A stretch of 55,760 nt of DNA, from contig JAFOBJ010000029.1 in assembly GCA_017381865.1 (NCBI GenBank), positions 1 to 55,760 of the forward strand, written 5' to 3'. Of this stretch, positions 29,949-37,443 are shown in pieces (the first letter of the stretch is position 1; the number at the start of each line of letters is the position of its first letter). Source of the DNA: Bacteroidales bacterium (GTDB lineage Bacteria; Bacteroidota; Bacteroidia; Bacteroidales; F082). A program made the translations under genes and the position numbers. A model generated the notes under the pieces. The model had not been told where the DNA came from. It searched no databases and saw only the letters and a list, made by a program, of their open reading frames with translations.

Positions 29949-29997
29949 ATTAAAAATGTTAAGTTATATAATAAGTATGATTAGTTTGTTAACATAA

Positions 29998-30005
29998 CAA
30001 AGATA
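29998..30005 (-). promoter_or_regulatory. -7 promoter element of fhs
   Basis: TATCTTTG on the minus strand, 49 bases before the ATG. Confidence 0.55.
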
Positions 30006-30135
30006 CGAAAAAAAACGCATATAAGATGGAAAAATTACAACAAAAAGCATATTAAAATTAGGCTTTGAGCAATGAGCCAAAAGCGGTGAACTGTCAATAG
30101 TTTCAAATCAAAACAAGATTTCGTATAGACATAAA

Positions 30136-30178
30136 AAAATAAAACTGCCGACATATTGATTATCAGCAGTTTTATTTT
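30136..30178. terminator. Terminator-like inverted repeat before the island
   Basis: Thirteen-base perfect arms AAAATAAAACTGC / GCAGTTTTATTTT with a 17-base loop and T-rich flanks. No gene immediately uses it; it may insulate the island from fhs. Confidence 0.6.
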
Positions 30179-30193
30179 ACAATTGTTTTATTT

Positions 30194-30217
30194 TGCGGAG
30201 AGAGAGACTCCAGAACT
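30194..30217 (+). other. Possible left attachment site (partial tRNA-Ser 3' end)
   Basis: GCGGAGAGAGAGACTCCAGAAC resembles the 3' end of the tRNA-Ser genes read on the plus strand; 11 of the first 12 bases match 37147-37158, and GAAC matches again. It lies ~7 kb from the tRNA. It could be a worn copy left by tRNA-targeted integration. Confidence 0.35.
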
Positions 30218-30307
30218 TACAAAGTCACAGAAAATCATAAAGTCTCAAATCATTGTAAATTAAGCGTTTATAAAATTGCTAAATTCATTGAAAATCATAA
30301 GGTGCAT

Positions 30308-30338
30308 TTTGATATATGGAAAATTGGATGTAATTTTG
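30308..30338 (+). promoter_or_regulatory. Full -33/-7 promoter of the PLD nuclease gene
   Basis: TTTG (30308-30311), 19 bases, then TAATTTTG (30331-30338): the complete Bacteroidota housekeeping pattern. The ATG at 30366 is 27 bases further on. The -7 overlaps the word TTTTGGGTGTAA, which also occurs at the other island end. Confidence 0.65.
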
Positions 30339-30365
30339 GGTGTAACTTTTAAAACATTAATAGAA

Positions 30366-31160
30366 ATGAAAATATCAAACGCATCAAAAGAGGCTATAGT
30401 TCCTCTTATAATAGGAGACAATAATGAGTTATGGACTGCAAGATCCAGTAAAAACCTCGTTAGCTTATTTCAAACCTATGGTTTTAGAGATGATGTTTAT
30501 AATGGTGCATTGCCCAAATTAAATAATTCAAATCTTAATACATCTAAAACAAACTACACAAAAGATCGTTTGTATAAAATTTCGGATATAGTTCTGAAAC
30601 AATTAATTGAACAACTTATCAGCGAATCTACCGATGCGCACAATGCTATTTCACAACTTAATAATATTCTTGCACACGATAACATTAAGTTGTCATTTAA
30701 CGATGGCTCCATTGTTTGGGAAGGAATCAAAATAGATCCTAAAATCGAAAACGAAGCGATATTTAAGAATAATGAAAAGAATGTCATTGATAATATAAAT
30801 AATGCTAAAGTATCAATTTTAGTTGCAATGGCTTGGTTTACTAATGAAAAAATAAAAGAAGCTTTAGTAAGGAAACGTCAAGAAGGTTTAAGAATAGAAT
30901 TAGTCATTTACAAAGATGGTATAAATGCTGCTCATGGAGTCGATTTAACTGATTTTGATTATAAAGAGATTAGAGGAACCAGAGGTGGATTTATGCATAA
31001 CAAGTTTTGTGTTATTGATAACCAAAAGGTTTTAACTGGCAGTTATAACTGGACAACAAATGCTGAGGCTAGAAATGATGAAAATGTGTTAGTGACTGCT
31101 GATAACACGACAGCTACAAATTACTCTGTAGAATTTAGAAGACTAAAGCCATTGATTTAA
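30366..31160 (+). CDS. PLD-superfamily nuclease with an N-terminal accessory domain
   Basis: A 264-residue protein. The C-terminal half has one complete HKD motif, HNKFCVIDNQKVLTGSYNWT, followed by NDENVLV. A single motif per chain means two chains would form one active site, as in Nuc-type nucleases. The N-terminal ~115 residues (from KEAIVPLIIGDNNELWTARSSKNLVSLFQ to LNNILAHDNIKLSFNDG) resemble N-terminal modules found on abortive-infection-type effectors. The defence link is from resemblance and island position only. The ATG at 30366 is preferred over the longer open frame because a full promoter lies just before it. Confidence 0.75.
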   Translation: MKISNASKEAIVPLIIGDNNELWTARSSKNLVSLFQTYGFRDDVYNGALPKLNNSNLNTSKTNYTKDRLYKISDIVLKQLIEQLISESTDAHNAISQLNNILAHDNIKLSFNDGSIVWEGIKIDPKIENEAIFKNNEKNVIDNINNAKVSILVAMAWFTNEKIKEALVRKRQEGLRIELVIYKDGINAAHGVDLTDFDYKEIRGTRGGFMHNKFCVIDNQKVLTGSYNWTTNAEARNDENVLVTADNTTATNYSVEFRRLKPLI

Positions 31161-31329
31161 AATAAACATTAAAAGAAACATCATTTTTGCTTTGGAGAGC
31201 CGTGAGAAAAACGATGTTCCCATCATTGGAACGTTCCATCCGAATGAGAGTTATTTTTGCGAGCCAGCGTATTGAATTTACCTCAGGCCACCGCATTGAT
31301 GCTGCTAAATGTGATGCTGACAAACAATG
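31161..31329 (+). other. Decayed DNA after the PLD gene
   Basis: Short open stretches in different frames (e.g. SREKNDVPIIGTFHPNESYF) run into stops. No intact gene; probably eroded coding sequence of the mobile element. Confidence 0.4.
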
Positions 31330-32152
31330 AGCGAAGAACGGCTACACAAACAAACTCAAGTAGAGTGTATCGGATATTAATGCCGCCCTCTTCGCTATTA
31401 TACAATAATGCAGGAGGTATTCAAAGAGTACGAGGTTAAGGATATTATGCCTACTCGAGAAGAAATGCACAGAACTTGAACGCATCGAGGCTGAACGGCA
31501 GCATAAAGAACACCAAATAGATCTTGCCGAGCAAGAACTCAAACAGGTGAAATCGGAGATACGCACCGACAAACTCAAAAGCGTAACCACCGATGCAGCC
31601 ACAGCCCTTGCAAGCGGTGTGAGTTCTCTTTTTGGCAGTGGTAAGATGAAATCGTTGGAACGCAAGAACGAGGATTTACGGGATGAGATAGCAATCCGAA
31701 ACGAGACCATCGAGCAACTGCAATCCAATATCAAGCAAATGCAGGTGGAACACCAAAAGCAGATACAGGAGGTGAAGCAATCATACGAAGCGGAACATCG
31801 TAAACAATCGGAGTATATCGACAAGATTTTGCGTTACTTCCCGTATGTGGAGAAATTGATGCCAATGATTAAATACCTCAGCGAGAAAATAGGGTTCAAC
31901 GACAGCCTTATCAAATTATTATGTACCTTTAAGGAAATACCCGTCAAAGGTAAGCTCTACTCAACGATGTTTAACCAATCATTTTCAGCCGATGGTGCGG
32001 TCTGCTCCCTCAAAGAGGACAAAGAGGGAAGATTTGACCTTAGAATCGATGGTGTTTCGCATCACTCTTGGTTCAGACGCAAAAAAGATGAGTTTATGGA
32101 AGCATTAGGGTTGCCGACAAGTAGAAGACAAAATCGAGGGCTGAAACTCTAA
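31330..32152 (+). pseudogene. MobV/Pre-type mobilization relaxase, decayed, C-terminal part only
   Basis: The last ~200 codons (31547-32152) are open: a coiled coil (MKSLERKNEDLRDEIAIRNE) and an end like that of Bacteroides MobV relaxases (LYSTMFNQSFSADGA, LRIDGVSHHSWF). Upstream, the recognisable relaxase words occur in different frames: DINAALFAII, then QEVFKEYEVKDIMPTREEM, then ELERIEAERQHKEH, so at least two frameshifts have accumulated. The N-terminal nickase domain with its catalytic His/Tyr motifs is missing. The gene marks the region as a former mobilizable element that can no longer nick its own origin. An intact terminator follows. Confidence 0.7.
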
Positions 32153-32163
32153 AATGCACCTCC

Positions 32164-32210
32164 AAGTCGTAATAATTTGCCTAAAATGAGCCTATTATTA
32201 CGACTTTTTT
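32164..32210 (+). terminator. Terminator between the relaxase remnant and the Hxs leader
   Basis: Thirteen-base perfect stem AAGTCGTAATAAT / ATTATTACGACTT with a 17-base loop, then a run of T. It insulates the Hxs transcript from upstream reading. Confidence 0.85.
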
Positions 32211-32211
32211 G

Positions 32212-32219
32212 TAATTTTG
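32212..32219 (+). promoter_or_regulatory. -7 promoter element of the Hxs operon and leader
   Basis: TAATTTTG directly after the terminator. Transcription from it would start near 32224, at the base of the first leader hairpin, ~260 bases before hxsD. Confidence 0.6.
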
Positions 32220-32222
32220 CAG

Positions 32223-32438
32223 TTGGATAGGGGTAACTCTATCCAAGACATATGAGTTAAAAAGAAGCGTTATGCTATCTTGATACTTGGGAACGTAGGA
32301 AATTCACAAAGTATAAGTCAAGAAAAGCGTAATGGTTTCTCACGCATATAGCGTGGGCTGCTATTACCATCCCTCGACTTATACGGGTTTTCCTACGACC
32401 TCCAAGAACGAACGTGGCATTGCAGTTCCACGCTTCTT
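32223..32438 (+). ncRNA. Long structured leader RNA upstream of hxsD
   Basis: First hairpin TTGGATAG / CTATCCAA (32223-32246). Then a rod of nested helices: AAGAAGCGT 32262-32270 with 32430-32438; ATGC 32272-32275 with 32417-32420; CTTGGG 32286-32291 with 32401-32406; CGTAGGAAA 32294-32302 with 32389-32397; GTATAAGTC 32311-32319 with 32376-32384; ATGGT 32332-32336 with 32366-32370; CACGC 32341-32345 with 32351-32355. All nest without crossing. CGTGG/CCACG (32413-32417 / 32428-32432) competes with the outer helix, so two states are possible. No terminator follows, so it reads into hxsD. Overall it is 6S-like in shape, but identity is unknown. Confidence 0.6.
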
Positions 32439-32484
32439 CGTTGAATAAGATTGGTCTTTGGGGGCTGGAAGACTTGGTACGGTT

Positions 32485-32820
32485 ATGGCAGACATTAAAT
32501 TCCCAGTCGTAGAACTTGAAGACAATAAATTTCAAGTTTCGGTAGATTTGAATTTGTATGCAAAAGAGGTTATTACAGCAGCCTTATACAAATTTACCCA
32601 TCTCTATTTCATACATCAGGTAACTGATAGTAGCAATTCCAACTTAGTTCAAATTGTTTTTGAGTCCAAAGAGGATAATCAAGTAAATGCAGATGTTCCA
32701 AAACACTTCTGCAATGAGTTGATAGACCAGCAACTTAGACATTATACGAATAATCAATTTGGACATATTCGAGATTTGATAGTTGAAGAAGCATTCAAAC
32801 CTGTCAATGTAAAACGATGA
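32485..32820 (+). CDS. hxsD: HxsD, His-Xaa-Ser system small protein
   Basis: A 111-residue soluble protein matching the HxsD family that accompanies the paired radical SAM enzymes. The family hallmark near the C-terminus (an LLNDYxLRE-like segment followed by IRxLIxxxAF) appears as ELIDQQLRHYTNNQFGHIRDLIVEEAF. The rest is a small alpha/beta domain with one Cys (FCNELI). It has no signal peptide. Its exact job is not established; a recognition or carrier role for the precursor is plausible. It opens the operon, 3 bases before hxsB. The ATG at 32485 is chosen over a TTG at 32458. Confidence 0.85.
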   Translation: MADIKFPVVELEDNKFQVSVDLNLYAKEVITAALYKFTHLYFIHQVTDSSNSNLVQIVFESKEDNQVNADVPKHFCNELIDQQLRHYTNNQFGHIRDLIVEEAFKPVNVKR

Positions 32821-32823
32821 ATT

Positions 32824-34248
32824 ATGGCTTATCAACTATTGCCGTTCCGCTTTGAACGATTTAATGATAATGAATATCTCCTAACTAACGAAGTGGGAGA
32901 ATATATATTTTTACAGAATGAAGACTTTTATCATCTTGTAAAAGGTGATATGGATGAACATTGTGATTTGTTTTATGATATAGCCTCAAAACAAATTGCA
33001 ACCACTGATAACGTTACGGATGTAATCCCGATGCTTGCTACTAAATTCCGTACCAAGAAAAGCATATTGAGGGATTTTACATCTTTGCATATGGTTGTGC
33101 CTACTTTACGCTGTAATTCAAGTTGTATTTATTGCCAAGTTGCACGTAAGAATATGGACGACCATTCTGCAAATATGACAAAGAAAACAGCTAAAAATGT
33201 AGTTAAAACCATATTTCAATCGCCCTCGCCATTTATAAAGATAGAGTTTCAAGGTGGAGACCCATCTACTGATTTTGAAATGGTTAAGTATATTATTGAA
33301 GAGGCTGAATGGCAGAATCTATTCAAGAAACGTGTACTTGAATTTGTTATATGTACTAATCTGACATTGCTTAACGAGGATATGGTAAAATACCTCAAAA
33401 AGCATAAATGTATGATTTCAACATCCTTAGATGGTCCAAAGGATTTGCACGACACAAATCGTCCTTTACAGAATAAAGACTTAGACCATCACGCTATATT
33501 TGAAAAGAACCTAACTATGATACGCGACATTTGGGGGGATAAAGAGTGTGTTTCCGCCTTGATGACAACATCAAAACATAGTTTAGGGCGTTTCAAAGAA
33601 ATCATTGATGAGTATGTTCGATTAGGATTTAACAATATCTTCTTACGTTCTCTTAATCCATACGGATTTGCAAAGCAGTATAAAGAAAAAATTGCTTATC
33701 CCGTAGAAGAATTTATTGAGAACTATAAAGAAGGTCTTAATTATATAATTGAGTTAAATAAGAAGGGTACATTTTTCATTGAGGGTTTTGCCGCATTATT
33801 GCTTAAACGAATGTTGACCCCATTTGCAACAGGTTTTGTTGACTTACAATCACCTGCTGGCGTTGGAATCGCAGGAGCAATTTATGATTATGACGGGAAT
33901 GTGTATGTCTCTGATGAAGCCCGAATGATGGCTCGTTTCAAGAATTTCTATTTCAGACTTGGAAATGTGAATGAGAATACTTACCAAGAAATGTTCAATG
34001 GTGAATTACTTCATAATATTATTTCATCCGCTTGTACGGAATGTTTACCTATGTGCTCGGAATGTGTATTCCAACCATATTGTGGTGCTGACCCCGTCCG
34101 TAATATGTCAGAGCAGGGAGATATGATAGGATTCCGTCCAACCAATGAAATGTGCAAGAAAACAAAGGCGATTATACGCTATCTGTTTGAGTTATTAAAG
34201 AAGCACGACCCTGAGATAAATAGAATATTTTGGTCTTGGATAAATTGA
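32824..34248 (+). CDS. hxsB: HxsB, radical SAM/SPASM-type peptide maturase
   Basis: A 474-residue iron-sulfur enzyme. N-terminal start LLPFRFERFNDNEYLLTNEVGEYIFL is family-typical. The radical SAM motif is CNSSCIYC (C97, C101, C104), with GGDPSTD and STSLDGP nearby. The C-terminus has a SPASM-like cluster with C404, C407, C411, C414, C420 and C444, expected to bind auxiliary Fe-S clusters, as in enzymes that crosslink or modify ribosomal peptides. It should use SAM to make a 5'-deoxyadenosyl radical and act on HxsA, probably at its His/Ser repeats. The reaction on this Bacteroidales version is not known to me. It sits between hxsD and hxsC. Confidence 0.92.
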   Translation: MAYQLLPFRFERFNDNEYLLTNEVGEYIFLQNEDFYHLVKGDMDEHCDLFYDIASKQIATTDNVTDVIPMLATKFRTKKSILRDFTSLHMVVPTLRCNSSCIYCQVARKNMDDHSANMTKKTAKNVVKTIFQSPSPFIKIEFQGGDPSTDFEMVKYIIEEAEWQNLFKKRVLEFVICTNLTLLNEDMVKYLKKHKCMISTSLDGPKDLHDTNRPLQNKDLDHHAIFEKNLTMIRDIWGDKECVSALMTTSKHSLGRFKEIIDEYVRLGFNNIFLRSLNPYGFAKQYKEKIAYPVEEFIENYKEGLNYIIELNKKGTFFIEGFAALLLKRMLTPFATGFVDLQSPAGVGIAGAIYDYDGNVYVSDEARMMARFKNFYFRLGNVNENTYQEMFNGELLHNIISSACTECLPMCSECVFQPYCGADPVRNMSEQGDMIGFRPTNEMCKKTKAIIRYLFELLKKHDPEINRIFWSWIN

Positions 34249-34254
34249 TTTGAA

Positions 34255-35394
34255 ATGAAACAGATTCAAGGAACATCATATAATATCAATGACGATATAA
34301 TAGGAAGGATCACATTTGGGAAGAATATATTCTCTCGTTCAAATGAAATTCTTGTAAGTAATAATGTAGATAAGCCAGCATTTGGTTATTCTGCGACGAT
34401 AACATCCAATAAGTCAGTTATTGACAATAGTAAACCATATTGTATTGTTGACAATACAGATAGTTTCCACGAAGGGGATGTCGTTGTTGTCAATAATCAA
34501 GGAGAAGTTATATTTGTATATGAGATTTCCTCAAATCATAATGCGATAATGGCGACAGAACGCTGTAATCATCGTTGTATTATGTGCCCACAACCTCCAA
34601 TTGTTCAAGAAAAAGATAAAACTCCATTCAATCTGAAACTTATTTCATTATTTGACAAAGGGACTGAGGAAATTGGTATAACTGGAGGTGAGCCAACTCT
34701 CATAGGAGATAATCTTTTTGTGTTGATTAAGCACATACAGAAAGAACTTCCTAAAACTGCAATTAGTATCTTGTCAAATGGAGTAAGATTTGCAGATAAG
34801 GAGTTTGCTATGAAATTGGCAAAATGCCATCATCACGATTTACAGATAGATATCCCATTATTTTCGGATATAGCGGATGAACATAATCGAATTGTTGGAG
34901 CAAAAACATTTTACAAGACTATACAGGGATTATATAATTTAGCGTTATTCCGTCAAAGAATCGGTTTAAGGATTGTAGTCCATAAGCAAACTTATAAACG
35001 CTTGCCTCAGTTTGCGGATTTTATATATCATAATTTCCCTTTCGTCTCGCAAGTAGCATTTATGCAGATGGAAACAACAGGGTTGGCAAAAGAAAACTTC
35101 GATGAGCTATGGATTGACCCCTACGATTATAATAATGAACTGCGTGAAGCTGTTCTTCTTTTGGCTGACAGAGGTATGAAACCATATATTTATAATGCAC
35201 AATTATGTGTATTACCCGAAGATATACGATGCTATGCCCAACAATCAATCTCAGATTGGAAAGATATATATATATCAGAATGTGACGGTTGTTTGCTAAA
35301 AGGTCAATGTGCTGGTTTCTTTGCTTCAAATAAAGAGCATCATAGTAAGCATATTAAAAAAGTCGAGCACATATCAGAAGATATATCGTGTTAG
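34255..35394 (+). CDS. hxsC: HxsC, second radical SAM maturase of the Hxs system
   Basis: A 379-residue radical SAM protein always paired with HxsB in this system. The cluster motif is CNHRCIMC (C104, C108, C111), and the GGEP motif is GITGGEPTLIGD. The end ECDGCLLKGQCAGFF supplies further Cys typical of the family. About 100 residues precede the radical SAM core and probably form a peptide-binding region. It is 6 bases after hxsB and 35 before hxsA, so all are likely one transcript. Two radical enzymes for one peptide suggests two modifications or a heteromeric maturase; this is inference. Confidence 0.92.
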   Translation: MKQIQGTSYNINDDIIGRITFGKNIFSRSNEILVSNNVDKPAFGYSATITSNKSVIDNSKPYCIVDNTDSFHEGDVVVVNNQGEVIFVYEISSNHNAIMATERCNHRCIMCPQPPIVQEKDKTPFNLKLISLFDKGTEEIGITGGEPTLIGDNLFVLIKHIQKELPKTAISILSNGVRFADKEFAMKLAKCHHHDLQIDIPLFSDIADEHNRIVGAKTFYKTIQGLYNLALFRQRIGLRIVVHKQTYKRLPQFADFIYHNFPFVSQVAFMQMETTGLAKENFDELWIDPYDYNNELREAVLLLADRGMKPYIYNAQLCVLPEDIRCYAQQSISDWKDIYISECDGCLLKGQCAGFFASNKEHHSKHIKKVEHISEDISC

Positions 35395-35417
35395 TTCATT
35401 TATTGTTTAATTTTAAA

Positions 35418-35425
35418 AAGGAGGT
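35418..35425 (+). promoter_or_regulatory. hxsA: Strong Shine-Dalgarno before hxsA
   Basis: AAGGAGGT, four bases from the ATG. A near-full anti-16S match is unusual in Bacteroidota and favours the ATG at 35430 over an upstream GTG at 35388. Confidence 0.75.
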
Positions 35426-35429
35426 CTCA

Positions 35430-35696
35430 ATGAAGAAGCTTTTGTTCTTTGCTGTCTCTGCACTTCTTGCAGGTGCAAGCTATTGTTCCTCTGTTGGCGA
35501 AAAGATTGTTGCTAAAGTTACAAACAGCGACACTCAAATCGAGCAACAACAGGAACAAACATTGGTACTTGAACAATCGTCTGCCGAGTTTAAGTTACTC
35601 GCCAGTCATAGTTCACACAGTAGCCATAGCTCGCATAGTTCACACAGCAGCCACAGTTCGCACAGTTCTCATAGTTCACACTATTCGAGTAGATAA
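35430..35696 (+). CDS. hxsA: HxsA, secreted His-Xaa-Ser repeat precursor peptide
   Basis: An 88-residue peptide. Residues 1-20 are a Sec-type signal (MKKLLFFAVSALLAGASYCS); the Cys at 19 might be a lipobox but the -1 residue is Tyr, so this is uncertain. Residues 21-58 are a Gln/Glu-rich leader. From residue 59 comes eight HSS triplets plus HYSSR: nine His (60, 63, 66, 69, 72, 75, 78, 81, 84). The nucleotides vary among synonymous codons (CAT/CAC, AGT/AGC/TCA/TCG), so the repeat is kept at protein level. It is the last gene of the Hxs operon and the expected substrate of HxsB/HxsC. A terminator follows. Confidence 0.93.
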   Translation: MKKLLFFAVSALLAGASYCSSVGEKIVAKVTNSDTQIEQQQEQTLVLEQSSAEFKLLASHSSHSSHSSHSSHSSHSSHSSHSSHYSSR

Positions 35697-35715
35697 AGAA
35701 CTTGGTAAAATTAGG

Positions 35716-35747
35716 ATGGGAGTAGATTTTTCTGCTCCCATTTCTTT
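35716..35747 (+). terminator. Terminator of the Hxs operon
   Basis: Eleven-pair stem around ATGGGAG / CTCCCAT with a TTTT loop and T-rich tail, 20 bases past hxsA. Confidence 0.8.
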
Positions 35748-35765
35748 GCTATACTGTATCTATTG

Positions 35766-36257
35766 CTAAATTATGCCGTAATGTTTCTTTGTTGCATTAT
35801 CAAACACATCGGTTTCTTTTAGAAACTCCATTATTCTTTCTCTATCTTCATCAATAAGGCAGCCTTTCATTTTGCCATCTTTGTCTTTGATTTTGAGTTT
35901 AGAAATTTCAAAAATATCTGAACAATCTAACCAACTATCATAATCTAAAATCGCACGATAATTACGAACCTGTAACTGATATTGACAGTCAAGAAACTCT
36001 TTAGAATGATTTGATGGATCTATTTCTGAATTTATTAGCAATGCACCAACTGCTACACCTTCGGGCGTAAAGCCTATAATAACGATATATTTTAACCTAT
36101 CCTTATATCCTTTTTTTAAGGTCAAACCATCTTCTTCGTCTAACGGGACATAAATAATGTCTCCAACTTTAATTGAAGACATATCTACTTTCTCTTTATC
36201 AGCAATGATTGCCTTAAGTTTGCTTAAAGTGCCAGCTTTATCATCCATAATTAACAA
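35766..36257 (-). CDS. Probable toxin partner of the Panacea gene, PemK-like
   Basis: A protein of 160-163 residues. The middle has VGDIIYVPLDEEDGLTLKKGYKDRLKYIVIIG, the beta-barrel start seen in PemK/MazF-like endoribonucleases and related cap-less domains, followed by GVAVGALLINSEI. The rest is charged and helical. It follows the Panacea gene in a toxin-second order, overlapping it by 7 bases if the upstream ATG is used or separated by 2 if MDDK is the start. The PemK-like fold is from sequence resemblance; catalytic residues are not assured. It is convergent to the Hxs operon. Confidence 0.6.
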   Translation of the reverse strand: MLIMDDKAGTLSKLKAIIADKEKVDMSSIKVGDIIYVPLDEEDGLTLKKGYKDRLKYIVIIGFTPEGVAVGALLINSEIDPSNHSKEFLDCQYQLQVRNYRAILDYDSWLDCSDIFEISKLKIKDKDGKMKGCLIDEDRERIMEFLKETDVFDNATKKHYGII

Positions 36258-36811
36258 GACAAGGCATTTTTAACGAGTTGTTTCTCACGTATATAGTCTA
36301 CCATTGTCTCAGAAGCCTTACCAGCACGTGCTATATCAATAATAGTAATAAAGTTTTTCTGAGGATCATCCAACATACGTCTATTCGCTTCTTTCCAAGC
36401 TGAATCATGTGACATATCAGACAAATCATATGGATCTGCATCTTTGTATTTTTCAATAGCATCCTCTAAACATTTCTTATTCGCTCCTGATATATAATCC
36501 ATATCAGGAGACATTGAAGCATATACTTTCTTATCTCTAACTTCAATTCCCAATAGAAAATCTTTAAAATCACCTTCCAAAGGCTTTCCTTCAGCTATTT
36601 GTAATGCTTTATAGGTATAGGTTGGAACTGGTCCATGTTTAACCGCACGAAATGATTCATCAACTATAACCTTTCCATATTTTACTAAATGGTCTTGTTG
36701 AGCGAAATACAGAATCTTGAACAATTTGATATAATCCACTCCATCTGGGAAACTCTGCATAATGTAGAGTATCACAGCTTTAATTTTTGTTATTTGAATG
36801 AGACTTTTCAT
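36251..36811 (-). CDS. Panacea-domain (DUF4065-type) antitoxin
   Basis: A 186-residue protein from the ATG at 36811. The Panacea/SocA-like fold is seen in FPDGVDYIKLFKILYFAQQDHLVKYGKVI, FRAVKHGPVPTYTYKAL and DSAWKEANRRM. Panacea proteins act as antitoxins to many unrelated toxins and sit directly upstream of them, exactly as here. A TAnnTTTG element at 36835-36842 supports this start; the open frame extends further upstream but that part overlaps the promoter. Likely function: neutralise the toxin encoded next and stabilise the island or provide phage defence. Confidence 0.82.
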   Translation of the reverse strand: MKSLIQITKIKAVILYIMQSFPDGVDYIKLFKILYFAQQDHLVKYGKVIVDESFRAVKHGPVPTYTYKALQIAEGKPLEGDFKDFLLGIEVRDKKVYASMSPDMDYISGANKKCLEDAIEKYKDADPYDLSDMSHDSAWKEANRRMLDDPQKNFITIIDIARAGKASETMVDYIREKQLVKNALSC

Positions 36812-36834
36812 ATCACATATAATTATCCTGACTA

Positions 36835-36842
36835 CAAAGATA
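36835..36842 (-). promoter_or_regulatory. -7 promoter element of the toxin-antitoxin pair
   Basis: TATCTTTG on the minus strand, 23 bases before the antitoxin ATG. Confidence 0.55.
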
Positions 36843-37074
36843 CAACAATTATTCCAAATAATAGTTCTTATCAAGGGTAAAAAATAGTTTTAAGTATAAT
36901 ATAATAATATTTATGTAGTAAATTTGGCAATATTTAGTTTATACCATTTGTTATGTACCCAAAACGGACTAAACCTATTTTTGCTTAGGTAGCACTCAAA
37001 AAAGATGTTGACGAAAAGAGAAAGACGCTCATTCTTCTTTTTTCGCCAGCATTTATCTTAAAAATTCAAAAAAA

Positions 37075-37139
37075 TACACCCAATCTTGATTTTTGGGTGT
37101 AAAAAAAGGTGTAAATCTCGTAACTACTTGATTTACACC
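37075..37139. repeat. GGTGTAA repeats at the right island end; second hairpin is the tRNA-Ser(CGA) terminator
   Basis: Two back-to-back inverted repeats: TACACCCAA / TTGGGTGTA (37075-37101) and GGTGTAAAT / ATTTACACC (37108-37139). Read on the minus strand, the second is followed by seven T and can terminate tRNA-Ser(CGA). The word GGGTGTAA also occurs at 30337-30344. Such repeats flank tyrosine-integrase genes in many Bacteroidota elements. The stretch 36880-37074 holds no gene. Confidence 0.6.
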
Positions 37140-37147
37140 CTTTGCTG

Positions 37148-37234
37148 CGGAGGGAGAGGGATTCGAACCCTCGGACCGGGAGACCGGTCAACGGTTTTCG
37201 AGACCGCCCCATTCGACCACTCTGGCATCTCTCC
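37148..37234 (-). tRNA. tRNA-Ser, anticodon CGA
   Basis: Anticodon stem-loop GCGGTCTCGAAAACCG gives CGA. A long variable arm (GACCGGTCTCCCGGTC) and T-arm GAGGGTTCGAATCCCTC confirm tRNA-Ser. Acceptor GGAGAGA / TCCCTCC has one A-C mismatch at the fifth pair. CCA is not encoded. Confidence 0.93.
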
Positions 37235-37331
37235 TGTTTTTTTAAGTCTATAAGACAACAAGACTATAAGTTATTTGTTCGCAAACATTCTTTAGACTTT
37301 AGTCTTTTGCCTTTAGTCATTAAAGAACAAA

Positions 37332-37356
37332 AGCGACTTTCTAGTCGCTTCATCTC
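37332..37356 (-). terminator. Hairpin after tRNA-Ser(UGA) copy 2
   Basis: On the minus strand AGCGACT / AGTCGCT with a four-base loop followed by TTTGTT; same position as the terminator of copy 1. Confidence 0.65.
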
Positions 37357-37358
37357 CG

Positions 37359-37443
37359 CGGAGAAAGAGGGATTCGAACCCCCGGTACATTGCTGTACAA
37401 CGGTTTTCAAGACCGCCGCATTCGACCGCTCTGCCATTTCTCC
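37359..37443 (-). tRNA. tRNA-Ser, anticodon TGA (copy 2)
   Basis: Identical in mature sequence to the gene at 18299-18383: perfect GGAGAAA / TTTCTCC acceptor, anticodon TGA, long variable arm. The flanks are also partly alike for about 40 bases upstream of the gene, so this looks like a gene duplication. Confidence 0.96.

Follow-up and report, generated by a model that had tools for sequence, protein, structure and literature searches.

The locus considered here raises the question of how a His-Xaa-Ser (Hxs) operon in a Bacteroidales bacterium was acquired and how its expression is controlled. The window, by which is meant the whole stretch of 55,760 nt that was analysed, carries this operon behind a leader RNA (Table 1). 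The Hxs system (TIGR03976-TIGR03979) is reportedly due to Haft and Basu. As far as comparison of sequences can establish, HxsD, HxsB and HxsC have been shown to belong to the Hxs family, and a covarying leader fold, which has no Rfam 15 match, to recur before other genes. The explanation that we consider somewhat better than an even bet is that the stretch represents an Hxs operon, acquired horizontally, whose expression is mediated by a structured, portable leader RNA, which would function as a translational attenuator.

Table 1. Features of the hxs region, with positions counted from the first nucleotide of the window.
Feature	Position	Strand	Evidence
C-terminal remnant of Mob_Pre-type relaxase	31526..32149	+	overlaps ORF 31547-32152
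TAATTTTG, -7 promoter box upstream of leader RNA	32212..32219	+	fits TAnnTTTG
Structured leader RNA, P1 to P5, about 210 nt, two pseudoknots	32264..32473	+	covariation, covariance model
P1 5' strand, pairs with 32430-32436	32264..32270	+	7/7 pairs in window; 99.4% of cells paired (45 sequences)
Putative mini-ORF, ATG CTA TCT TGA (MLS-stop)	32272..32283	+	start/stop reading of leader
PK1 5' strand, loop of small hairpin, pairs with 32390-32397	32294..32301	+	8/8 pairs in window
PK2 5' strand, CAGTTCC, pairs with 32461-32467	32423..32429	+	7/7 pairs in window, at least 2 G-U
P5 stem	32454-32458 with 32469-32473	+	
PK2 3' strand, GGGGCTG, in P5 hairpin loop	32461..32467	+	17 nt before hxsD start codon
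hxsD	32485..32820	+	TIGR03976, 84 bits (cut-off 50)
hxsB, radical SAM enzyme, six-Cys tail	32824..34248	+	TIGR03978, 645.7 bits (cut-off 370)
hxsC, radical SAM enzyme	34255..35394	+	TIGR03977, 388.9 bits (cut-off 267.9)
hxsA-type precursor	35430..35696	+	repeat, signal-peptide-like start, place in operon
Terminator-like hairpin, 13 pairs	35714..35743	+	hairpin scan

The Hxs genes and their precursor

The gene order hxsD-hxsB-hxsC-hxsA, the coordinates (32485-35696, + strand) and the intergenic gaps of 3, 6 and 35 nt reported in the initial annotation hold on re-examination of the sequence, as do the two radical SAM motifs, CNSSCIYC and CNHRCIMC. The terminator proposed on the right coincides with the hairpin listed in Table 1. 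On the left, TAATTTTG of the proposed promoter fits the -7 box; the terminator hairpin was seen by eye only and is absent from the hairpin scan because its loop is longer than the scan permits. A profile search against the four Hxs families, which the initial annotation had recommended, was carried out with the curated NCBIfam model values as cut-offs. HxsD, HxsB and HxsC score above theirs, and the Hxs identity of these three proteins is thus supported by curated models. In contrast, HxsA falls below every curated HxsA cut-off, with 30.6 bits against 121.65 for HxsA, 35.6 against 48 for HxsA2 (its best score), 13.8 against 65 for HxsA3 and 33.7 against 55 for HxsA4.

The six-cysteine tail claimed for HxsB is confirmed by alignment, in which C404, C407, C411, C414, C420 and C444 are invariant among 24 HxsB sequences, the one from the window included. 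Against the Pfam SPASM model (PF13186) HxsB scores 19.6 bits, under the cut-off of 21.5. In sequence comparison it resembles CteB (5wgg) and the anaerobic sulfatase maturases, and HxsC weakly resembles the viperin-like enzymes. HxsC also possesses invariant cysteines (C318, C343, C346 and C352 across 24 sequences). Residues 1-94 of HxsB gave only weak matches in the PDB and Pfam, none of them to an RRE or PqqD; a PqqD search of the bacterium's own genome returned no match, and a PDB search with the HxsD profile gave no convincing match (best E 0.15).

HxsA is an 88-residue protein with a signal-peptide-like start, an LVLEQ stretch, eight HSS units and an HYSSR end, so that the nine histidines counted initially are indeed present, as eight HSS units and one HYS. 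The pattern H-X-S with variable X is kept in 44 distinct precursors of related loci, and the final unit is HYS in 43 of them. The earlier proposal, in which the His/Ser repeat of an exported peptide is modified by HxsB and HxsC, fits this pattern and may be extended: HxsD, HxsB and HxsC together would modify exported HxsA at its H-X-S units, and the LxL stretch ahead of the repeat may guide them. No description of an Hxs product was found in the available portions of the few Hxs papers that searches returned. In related operons, the gaps hold further exported proteins, many of which contain HXS units.

The locus resembles the Hxs system as outlined in the accessible part of PMC9062424 in that hxsD, hxsB and hxsC score above their cut-offs and adjoin a gene for an exported His-Xaa-Ser repeat protein. 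The D-B-C-A order is shared with an Aeromonas plasmid hxs locus and with that presented in an excerpt of PMC10686908. Unlike the known system, the window has a short HxsA that lies below all HxsA models and closes with its eight HSS units followed by HYSSR, and its operon has a structured leader RNA.

Signs of transfer and the role of the operon

The Hxs cassette bears marks of having been carried in by a mobile element. Its distribution is patchy, and some close relatives adjoin mobilisation genes. The relaxase remnant upstream, a probable sign of the carrier, is 53% identical to the C-terminus of the relaxase at locus L078 (E 1e-69), 55% to that at L034 (9e-71) and 33% to that at L076; the relaxases of L078 and L034 match Mob_Pre. 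In 10 of 16 carriers, the homology among hxs cassettes starts ahead of GTTATGC, at 32168-32212. A repeat marking a possible tRNA attachment site was sought at the left edge and not found.

These surroundings bear on a different reading of the operon, which we regard as roughly a one-in-four prospect: that mobile elements carry Hxs as a defence or exclusion system acting at the envelope, and that it does not produce a free peptide. Relatives of HxsB occur on 409 plasmid records, 325 of them conjugative, and on two phage records; hxs genes are present in Leptospira phage LE1, and the available text of PMC10686908 presents them as prophage cargo. In L034 the hxs genes are immediately followed by a PycTM effector and a cyclase, to which ORFs in L076 correspond, and candidate defence genes were seen among 131 flanking proteins (best 25 of 138 families, counted without a control set). 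However, PADLOC sees only a weak radical SAM similarity of Hxs proteins to viperin, and the neighbours of a gene on an island are no proof of its function.

Structure and distribution of the leader RNA

The leader is a conserved structured RNA in which compensatory changes exceed those of shuffled and slid controls. It had been claimed in the title of the initial annotation only, and covariation indicates that it is real and conserved. The analysis was based on an alignment of 45 sequences (A5), made up of the window and 44 copies, the latter taken from 55 non-redundant ones that are followed by a start codon at a distance of 38-64 nt. Five helices matching the predictions for the hxs leader pair in 96.2% of cells compared with 87.9 after shuffling (45 copies, 44 of them non-hxs). 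In the same five, both sides have changed in 124 cells, against 42.1 in shuffles (sd 4.8; 0/500 as high) and 14-24 when slid. For all nine helices, a set picked on the same alignment that was used for its count, the figure is 265 against 93.2 (sd 9.4; 0/500) and 38-72 when slid. The covariance model matches the window at 32261-32437 with 141.9 bits, the window being among its 22 training sequences.

The individual helices differ in how they fare. PK1 has both-side changes in five of its eight pairs (45 sequences). PK2 alone has 21 both-side-change cells in A5 compared with 6.0 in shuffles (0/500), a count that A5 overstates because the 11 copies omitted from it by eye (L116, L126, L139, L145, L151, L154, L156, L181, L198, L200 and L207) mostly have no clear P5 or PK2. 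In a less selected set of 109 elements (of 110, one being dropped as its P1 strand was not recognised), PK2 forms at least six contiguous pairs in 76, whereas swapped partners gave a mean of 42.5 and a maximum of 55 in 300 trials. Counted by pairs, both-side changes in PK2 lie within the shuffles (4 against 2.8; 116/500 as high), as do those in the small hairpin (130/500) and its further pair types (255/500). In the alignment as it stands, the P5 stem reaches only 53.4% pairing (45 sequences). An alternative helix of 9 bp overlaps P1 and has eight or nine of its nine pairs in 40 of the 45 sequences. An extra CTTG/CAAG helix, good by eye, was rejected as unsupported (mean run 6.19 compared with 6.10 for swapped partners).

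A putative short upstream ORF lies within the leader and would be translated. In the window it is one base shorter than in most relatives, of which the commonest form is ML[IVF]L-stop. From 112 elements, 18 without GTTATG and 10 identical in the first 60 nt were removed, and among the remaining 84 an in-frame stop within nine codons occurs in 80, while the other two frames give 56 and 25; the +1 frame thus also stops early in 56/84. Among 83 elements (the count began from two elements fewer and used the same filter), the stop after codon 4 is TAA in 25, TAG in 10 and TGA in 9, so the stop is kept while its identity varies. The conserved bases of the mini-ORF may also reflect RNA pairing, because the same bases form the 9-bp alternative helix.

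The initial annotation described the leader as the operon's own. A leader specific to Hxs was rejected, as 113 of 393 genomes of the order match the leader model at E of 0.01 or less (a per-genome threshold under which about four of the 113 could be chance matches, given 393 genomes), and copies precede many other genes. Conversely, the RNA is found in 29 of 47 hxs loci; 18 have no clear match, three of them ending before the site, and two loci with 26.6 and 23.3 bits, just above or within the reverse-strand background of 21.6-25.8, were not counted. The context of copies was studied for 90 high-scoring non-hxs matches, a non-random sample. A same-strand ORF with an ATG start lies within 200 nt downstream in 85 of these, at 43-62 nt in 51 of the 85. 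The sequence TAnnTTTG, which we take to be the Bacteroidota -7 box consensus, occurs within 75 nt upstream in 78/90 compared with 5.2/90 expected from random windows, a low baseline because these control windows, drawn from the same loci, are mostly coding. The genes behind the copies are mostly accessory and belong to many families: 79 downstream proteins form 56 groups, the largest of which (10 members) is an unannotated secreted family. Rfam 15 gave no matches in the window at 31500-36300 (E up to 1), and in 20 loci with other copies it gave only two, each of them falling on a tRNA and not on the leader RNA.

How the leader may control translation

The fold of the leader and its place before start codons are demonstrated by these comparisons, and from them we infer an attenuator mechanism. 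Transcription would start at the TAnnTTTG box, and ribosomes would translate the mini-ORF inside the leader RNA. Whether the ribosome stalls on the mini-ORF or finishes it would select the fold that is formed. PK2, situated some 20 nt upstream of the start codon (in A5, 11-30 nt from the ATG with a median of 21), would then hide or free the initiation region. The tetQ attenuator of Bacteroides and that of ermC, as covered in an excerpt of PMC5418344, are similar in possessing a short upstream ORF and a leader fold, and in a presumed point of control close to where translation of accessory genes starts. In contrast to these, one conserved two-pseudoknot fold of about 210 nt here precedes many different genes, and its regulatory action is predicted. 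The leader is also a structured RNA from the same order as Bacteroidales-1 (RF01693) and other Bacteroidota motifs given in the available part of PMC2864571, although unlike these it has no Rfam 15 match.

A ligand-sensing riboswitch, in which a small molecule or ion would stabilise the double-pseudoknot fold and control translation, and the mini-ORF would be a by-product of conserved bases, seems to us improbable, at roughly one chance in five. Some riboswitches control the initiation region by a pseudoknot, and the complex fold, the alternative helix overlapping P1 and the position of the PK2 strand are all consistent with such a class. However, riboswitch classes usually serve related pathways, whereas genes of many families stand behind this leader. 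That the downstream proteins fall into so many groups tells against the attenuator as well, since they point to no signal. The mini-ORF also keeps a stop codon of varying identity, which argues against a by-product.

Less probable again is a constitutive leader that does not switch and serves as an mRNA stabiliser, a translation aid for acquired genes or a site for a global RNA-binding protein. The many gene families would be expected of it, and export is suggested for 50 of 81 first ORFs compared with 59 of 221 other ORFs in the same loci (by a crude home-made rule with observed misses and false calls), but two pseudoknots and a kept mini-ORF seem, as an argument only, to exceed what stabilisation needs. 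Very doubtful, and set low once weighed, is an integron attC-like recombination site, which would move gene cassettes in the form of folded single-stranded DNA: GCGTTATGC has what we take to be a likeness to the attC core, cargo-like genes follow the element and two genomes have paired copies, at spacings of 0.9 and 1.4 kb, but the element occupies the coding strand ahead of start codons and is itself preceded by a promoter box, its helices commonly contain G-U pairs, and the hxs homology mostly starts before GTTATGC.

Translational attenuation of an acquired operon therefore remains the reading that we prefer. A wider proposal, offered tentatively and with well under even confidence, is that the leader represents an undescribed double-pseudoknot class with a mostly hydrophobic mini-ORF, which in Bacteroidia would serve as a portable expression module that senses the ribosome. 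It would travel with, or be recruited by, acquired genes such as the Hxs operon and those for secreted proteins, restriction and other accessory functions, and the host would switch its foreign gene pool by one common signal.

Overall, the Hxs gene set is of a known kind, and the surprise is the switch-like leader RNA outside Rfam 15. To our knowledge, and as a general impression, few cis-regulatory RNAs are known from the abundant gut bacteria of this group. The Hxs of the window is a compact, single-precursor version suited to biochemistry on this radical SAM system, and work on HxsA expression would have to take the native leader into account if the attenuator reading is true. In that case, one RNA fold would govern many accessory genes of abundant gut bacteria, and the conditions under which cryptic genes such as hxs are expressed would become directly testable.

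The hxs operon and its mobile setting

With its hxs operon the window adds a new member to the known Hxs system, in a mobile setting. The order hxsD-hxsB-hxsC-hxsA, the starts and ends of the genes and the intergenic spacings (3, 6 and 35 bases) within 32212-35747 are as the initial annotation had described them. Its assignment of the genes to Hxs families was borne out by NCBIfam profiles for HxsD (84 bits, cut-off 50), HxsB (645.7 bits, cut-off 370) and HxsC (388.9 bits, cut-off 267.9), whereas the repeat protein fell below the cut-offs of all four HxsA models (HxsA, HxsA2, HxsA3 and HxsA4). Across 24 aligned sequences of each enzyme, HxsB keeps its three radical SAM Cys and its six Cys of the tail invariant, as are the radical SAM Cys and C318, C343, C346 and C352 of HxsC; the invariance of these last four residues would allow for one auxiliary cluster in HxsC. 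In relatives, some hxs genes are apparently broken (L017/L068, L065 and L044: a stop in hxsB, a short hxsC, an hxsD lacking a start codon).

The middle residue of the H-X-S unit varies among 44 distinct precursors (S 180, R 33, Y 21, then Q, A, G, V and others). Tyr is present in the last unit of 43 of them, and an LxL-type stretch lies ahead of the repeat in 40, a raw count without a control. The constancy of His and Ser alongside a free X suggests that each unit is treated as His-to-Ser. Three-residue cyclophane enzymes act on aromatic-X-X motifs, which for H-X-S is a lead only. The D-B, B-C and C-A gaps of related operons often carry further exported-looking proteins, many with HXS units. 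Such gap proteins were seen in L036, L038, L040, L045-L047, L050, L058, L061, L063, L064, L069 and L074, most with HXS units; some have the repeat mid-protein or another domain after it, and those of L064 and L074 carry long GTH-SHYSG-type repeats.

A scan of the genome collection found 43 loci with HxsB relatives at 67-99% identity, carried by records of many Bacteroidales genera and families and by one MAG labelled Roseburia. Among 60 genomes of the genus, a close HxsC occurs in the source genome only, and one other genome has a form at 44% identity. When the window was compared with 16 carriers, the left edge of DNA homology fell at 32168-32212, around the promoter, in 10 of them, farther left in four (L033, L034, L077 and L078) and later in two (L038 and L044); the right edge fell at 35689-35747 in 14. 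Homology to close congeners stops at 29967-30012 on the left (G401, G419 and G437) and at 37100-37146 on the right (the same three genomes and G430), with the two flanks on different contigs in these congeners. Relative to them, window 30013-37100 appears to be an insertion or rearrangement. Two tRNA-Ser genes stand at its right edge, and an attachment-site repeat was looked for and not found.

In four carriers (L034, L076, L077 and L078), the operon adjoins integrase, excisionase-like, primase and relaxase genes by tblastn, the integrase and Mob_Pre being confirmed by Pfam for L034 and L078. A stretch left of the window's operon matches the C-terminal half of the carrier relaxases at 53% (L078), 55% (L034) and 33% (L076) identity. 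Together with its coiled-coil ORF, this stretch is a C-terminal remnant of the carrier element's Mob_Pre relaxase.

Features of the window around the hxs operon
Feature	Position	Strand	Setting
PLD-family protein	30276-31160		left of operon, inside 30013-37100
Relaxase remnant	31526-32149		
Coiled-coil ORF	31547-32152		overlaps relaxase remnant
Mini-ORF, MLS-stop	32272-32283		leader RNA
Panacea-domain gene and neighbour	35766-36874	(-)	right of operon, inside 30013-37100
Two tandem tRNA-Ser genes	37147-37443	(-)	right edge of 30013-37100

Around the 43 loci, 131 flanking proteins (cut at 400 aa; no control set) include, among the best 25 of 138 families, at least six Mob_Pre proteins and at least two other relaxases. 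Defence-like genes in these flanks encode at least four YhcG-type nucleases (also PDC-S02), at least three AriA-like ATPases and at least two PycTM effectors. Directly 3' of the operon in L034 (8987-10501) lies a Pycsar-type pair of a PycTM effector and a nucleotide cyclase, and ORFs matching it also occur in L076 (10987-12498). Outside this group, HxsB relatives turned up on plasmids, in 409 records (325 of them conjugative, 316 from Klebsiella), and in two phage records. Divergent hxsDBC is common on Klebsiella plasmids (H25-H46), with HxsB at about 28% identity among the matches listed; a mercury-resistance module adjoins it in the one such record examined. Published reports place hxs genes on a Vibrio region differing between strains, in an S. 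Typhi prophage as cargo (PMC10686908) and, for a P. aeruginosa clone, in a list that also has conjugation and phage genes. A survey of Bacteroidales RiPP clusters (PMC10352776) does not use the term 'hxs' in its main text.

Fold and mini-ORF of the leader RNA

RNAalifold predicted 38 pairs for 22 hxs leaders, 10 of them with changes on both sides, and within a single helix three pairs swap type in 9-11 of these leaders. The window's leader has a folding z of -3.68. Five helices corresponding to those predicted on the hxs leaders were counted on A5, an alignment of 45 copies of which 44 are non-hxs. Here, 96.2% of cells are paired, against 87.9% in shuffled alignments, and 124 cells carry double changes, against 42.1 (sd 4.8; 0/500) in shuffles and 14-24 in slid versions. 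Four further helices were picked on A5 itself, or spotted by eye and then tested; the resulting set of nine (50 pairs) has 89.7% of cells paired and 265 double-change cells, against 93.2 shuffled (sd 9.4; 0/500) and 38-72 slid.

Two of the interactions are pseudoknots. PK1 joins a hairpin loop (columns 39-46) to 146-153 and so crosses the stem of the hairpin (34-38/48-52). This stem has 25 double-change cells against 8.3 (0/500) and is ordinary by two other measures. In PK2 (87.4% paired), a CAGTTCC-type strand pairs with a GGAACTG-type loop of helix P5; it has 21 double-change cells against 6.0 (0/500), with a number of doubly changed pairs that is ordinary relative to shuffles (116/500). At least six contiguous PK2 pairs are present in 76 of 109 elements, against a mean of 42.5 and a maximum of 55 with swapped partners. 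P5 itself aligns poorly (53.4% paired). The window has all pairs of PK1 (8/8), PK2 (7/7) and P1 (7/7), and 2/4 of P3. An alternative helix of 9 bp that overlaps P1 retains at least 8 of its pairs in 40/45 copies, yet is neither supported nor excluded because its pairs hardly vary.

The leader also contains a mini-ORF. Of 84 distinct elements, 80 have a stop within 9 codons in the frame that starts at the ATG of GTTATGC (other frames, 56 and 25), and 50 have one within 5 codons (other frames, 23 and 19). Its peptides include MLIL (32), MLVL (6) and MLFL (3), together 41/84. Since TAA (25), TAG (10) and TGA (9) all occur after codon 4, it seems to be the stop that is kept, not a base.

Occurrence of the leader RNA and the genes behind it

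A covariance model, R1, was built from the 22 hxs leaders, the window's included. Of 47 hxs loci, 29 have a match to it ahead of hxsD that scores at least 46.7 bits, namely the 22 training loci and seven others. In five loci with reverse-strand matches, these reach 21.6-25.8 bits against 168.7-184.2 on the forward strand, and two further hxs-locus matches, scoring 26.6 and 23.3 bits, do not stand out from this background. Clear matches are lacking in 18 loci, three of which (L046, L072 and L075) are truncated short of this position. Five R1-negative loci (L038, L045, L047, L059 and L061) have another leader with, by eye, similar GTGG...CCACG arms, which may be a diverged version of the RNA. 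At E up to 1, no match was obtained in any of 17 distant hxs records (plasmids, phages and viral contigs).

A search of the source genome at E up to 1e-4 gave five matches, with scores of 156.2, 144.9, 141.9 (the window), 46.2 and 33.7 bits. The order is represented by 393 genomes, this one among them, and 113 match at E up to 0.01; the best non-hxs match has an E of 9e-39. The search does not match everywhere: in a set of 296 phylum genomes that again includes this one, 10 match at E up to 0.001, all from the same class. Some copies stop exactly at contig ends (G333:C48:1-170 and G333:C34:15657-15827), as if near-identical copies had broken the assemblies there.

Among 90 high-scoring copies, a same-strand ATG ORF lies within 200 nt of the RNA in 85 and TAnnTTTG within 75 nt upstream in 78. 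The ATG is 43-62 nt away in 51 of the 85, nearer in 12, at 63-80 nt in 12 and farther in 10. By a crude rule, 50 of 81 first ORFs look exported, against 59 of 221 other ORFs of the same loci. The 79 proteins behind the RNA form 56 BLAST groups, the largest having 10, 4, 3 and 3 members, and each Pfam family is matched by at most three of them. The ten-member group is a secreted family whose proteins carry the stretch FLGIPVDG or one like it (L124, L128, L130-L132, L139, L149, L158, L175 and L176). The 79 include secreted proteins, lipoproteins, one lincosamide nucleotidyltransferase-like protein, a GmrSD-type nuclease, an MBOAT protein and zinc-ribbon proteins.

A putative attenuator family

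Fold, place and mini-ORF conservation are read directly from the sequences. With its own promoter box, a mini-ORF that closes no later than PK1, and PK2 some 20 nt ahead of the start codon, the RNA resembles in its anatomy a translational attenuator such as that of tetQ of Bacteroides (reviewed in PMC5418344). The transcription start, translation of the mini-ORF, switching and the signal are presumed.

Rfam 15 gave no matches in window 31500-36300; across 20 loci holding other copies, it gave a tRNA and one weak match overlapping that tRNA, and nothing else. Term searches found Bacteroides, Bacteroidales and Prevotella absent from the main text of PMC11109978 and PMC8632094, and passages of PMC2864571 held no description of the RNA. 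No description was found in the literature, searched largely outside subscription papers and bioRxiv preprints, or in Rfam 15. The main interest lies in the leader rather than in the Hxs operon itself: it is an RNA family of which these searches turned up no account, and it extends across many gene families.
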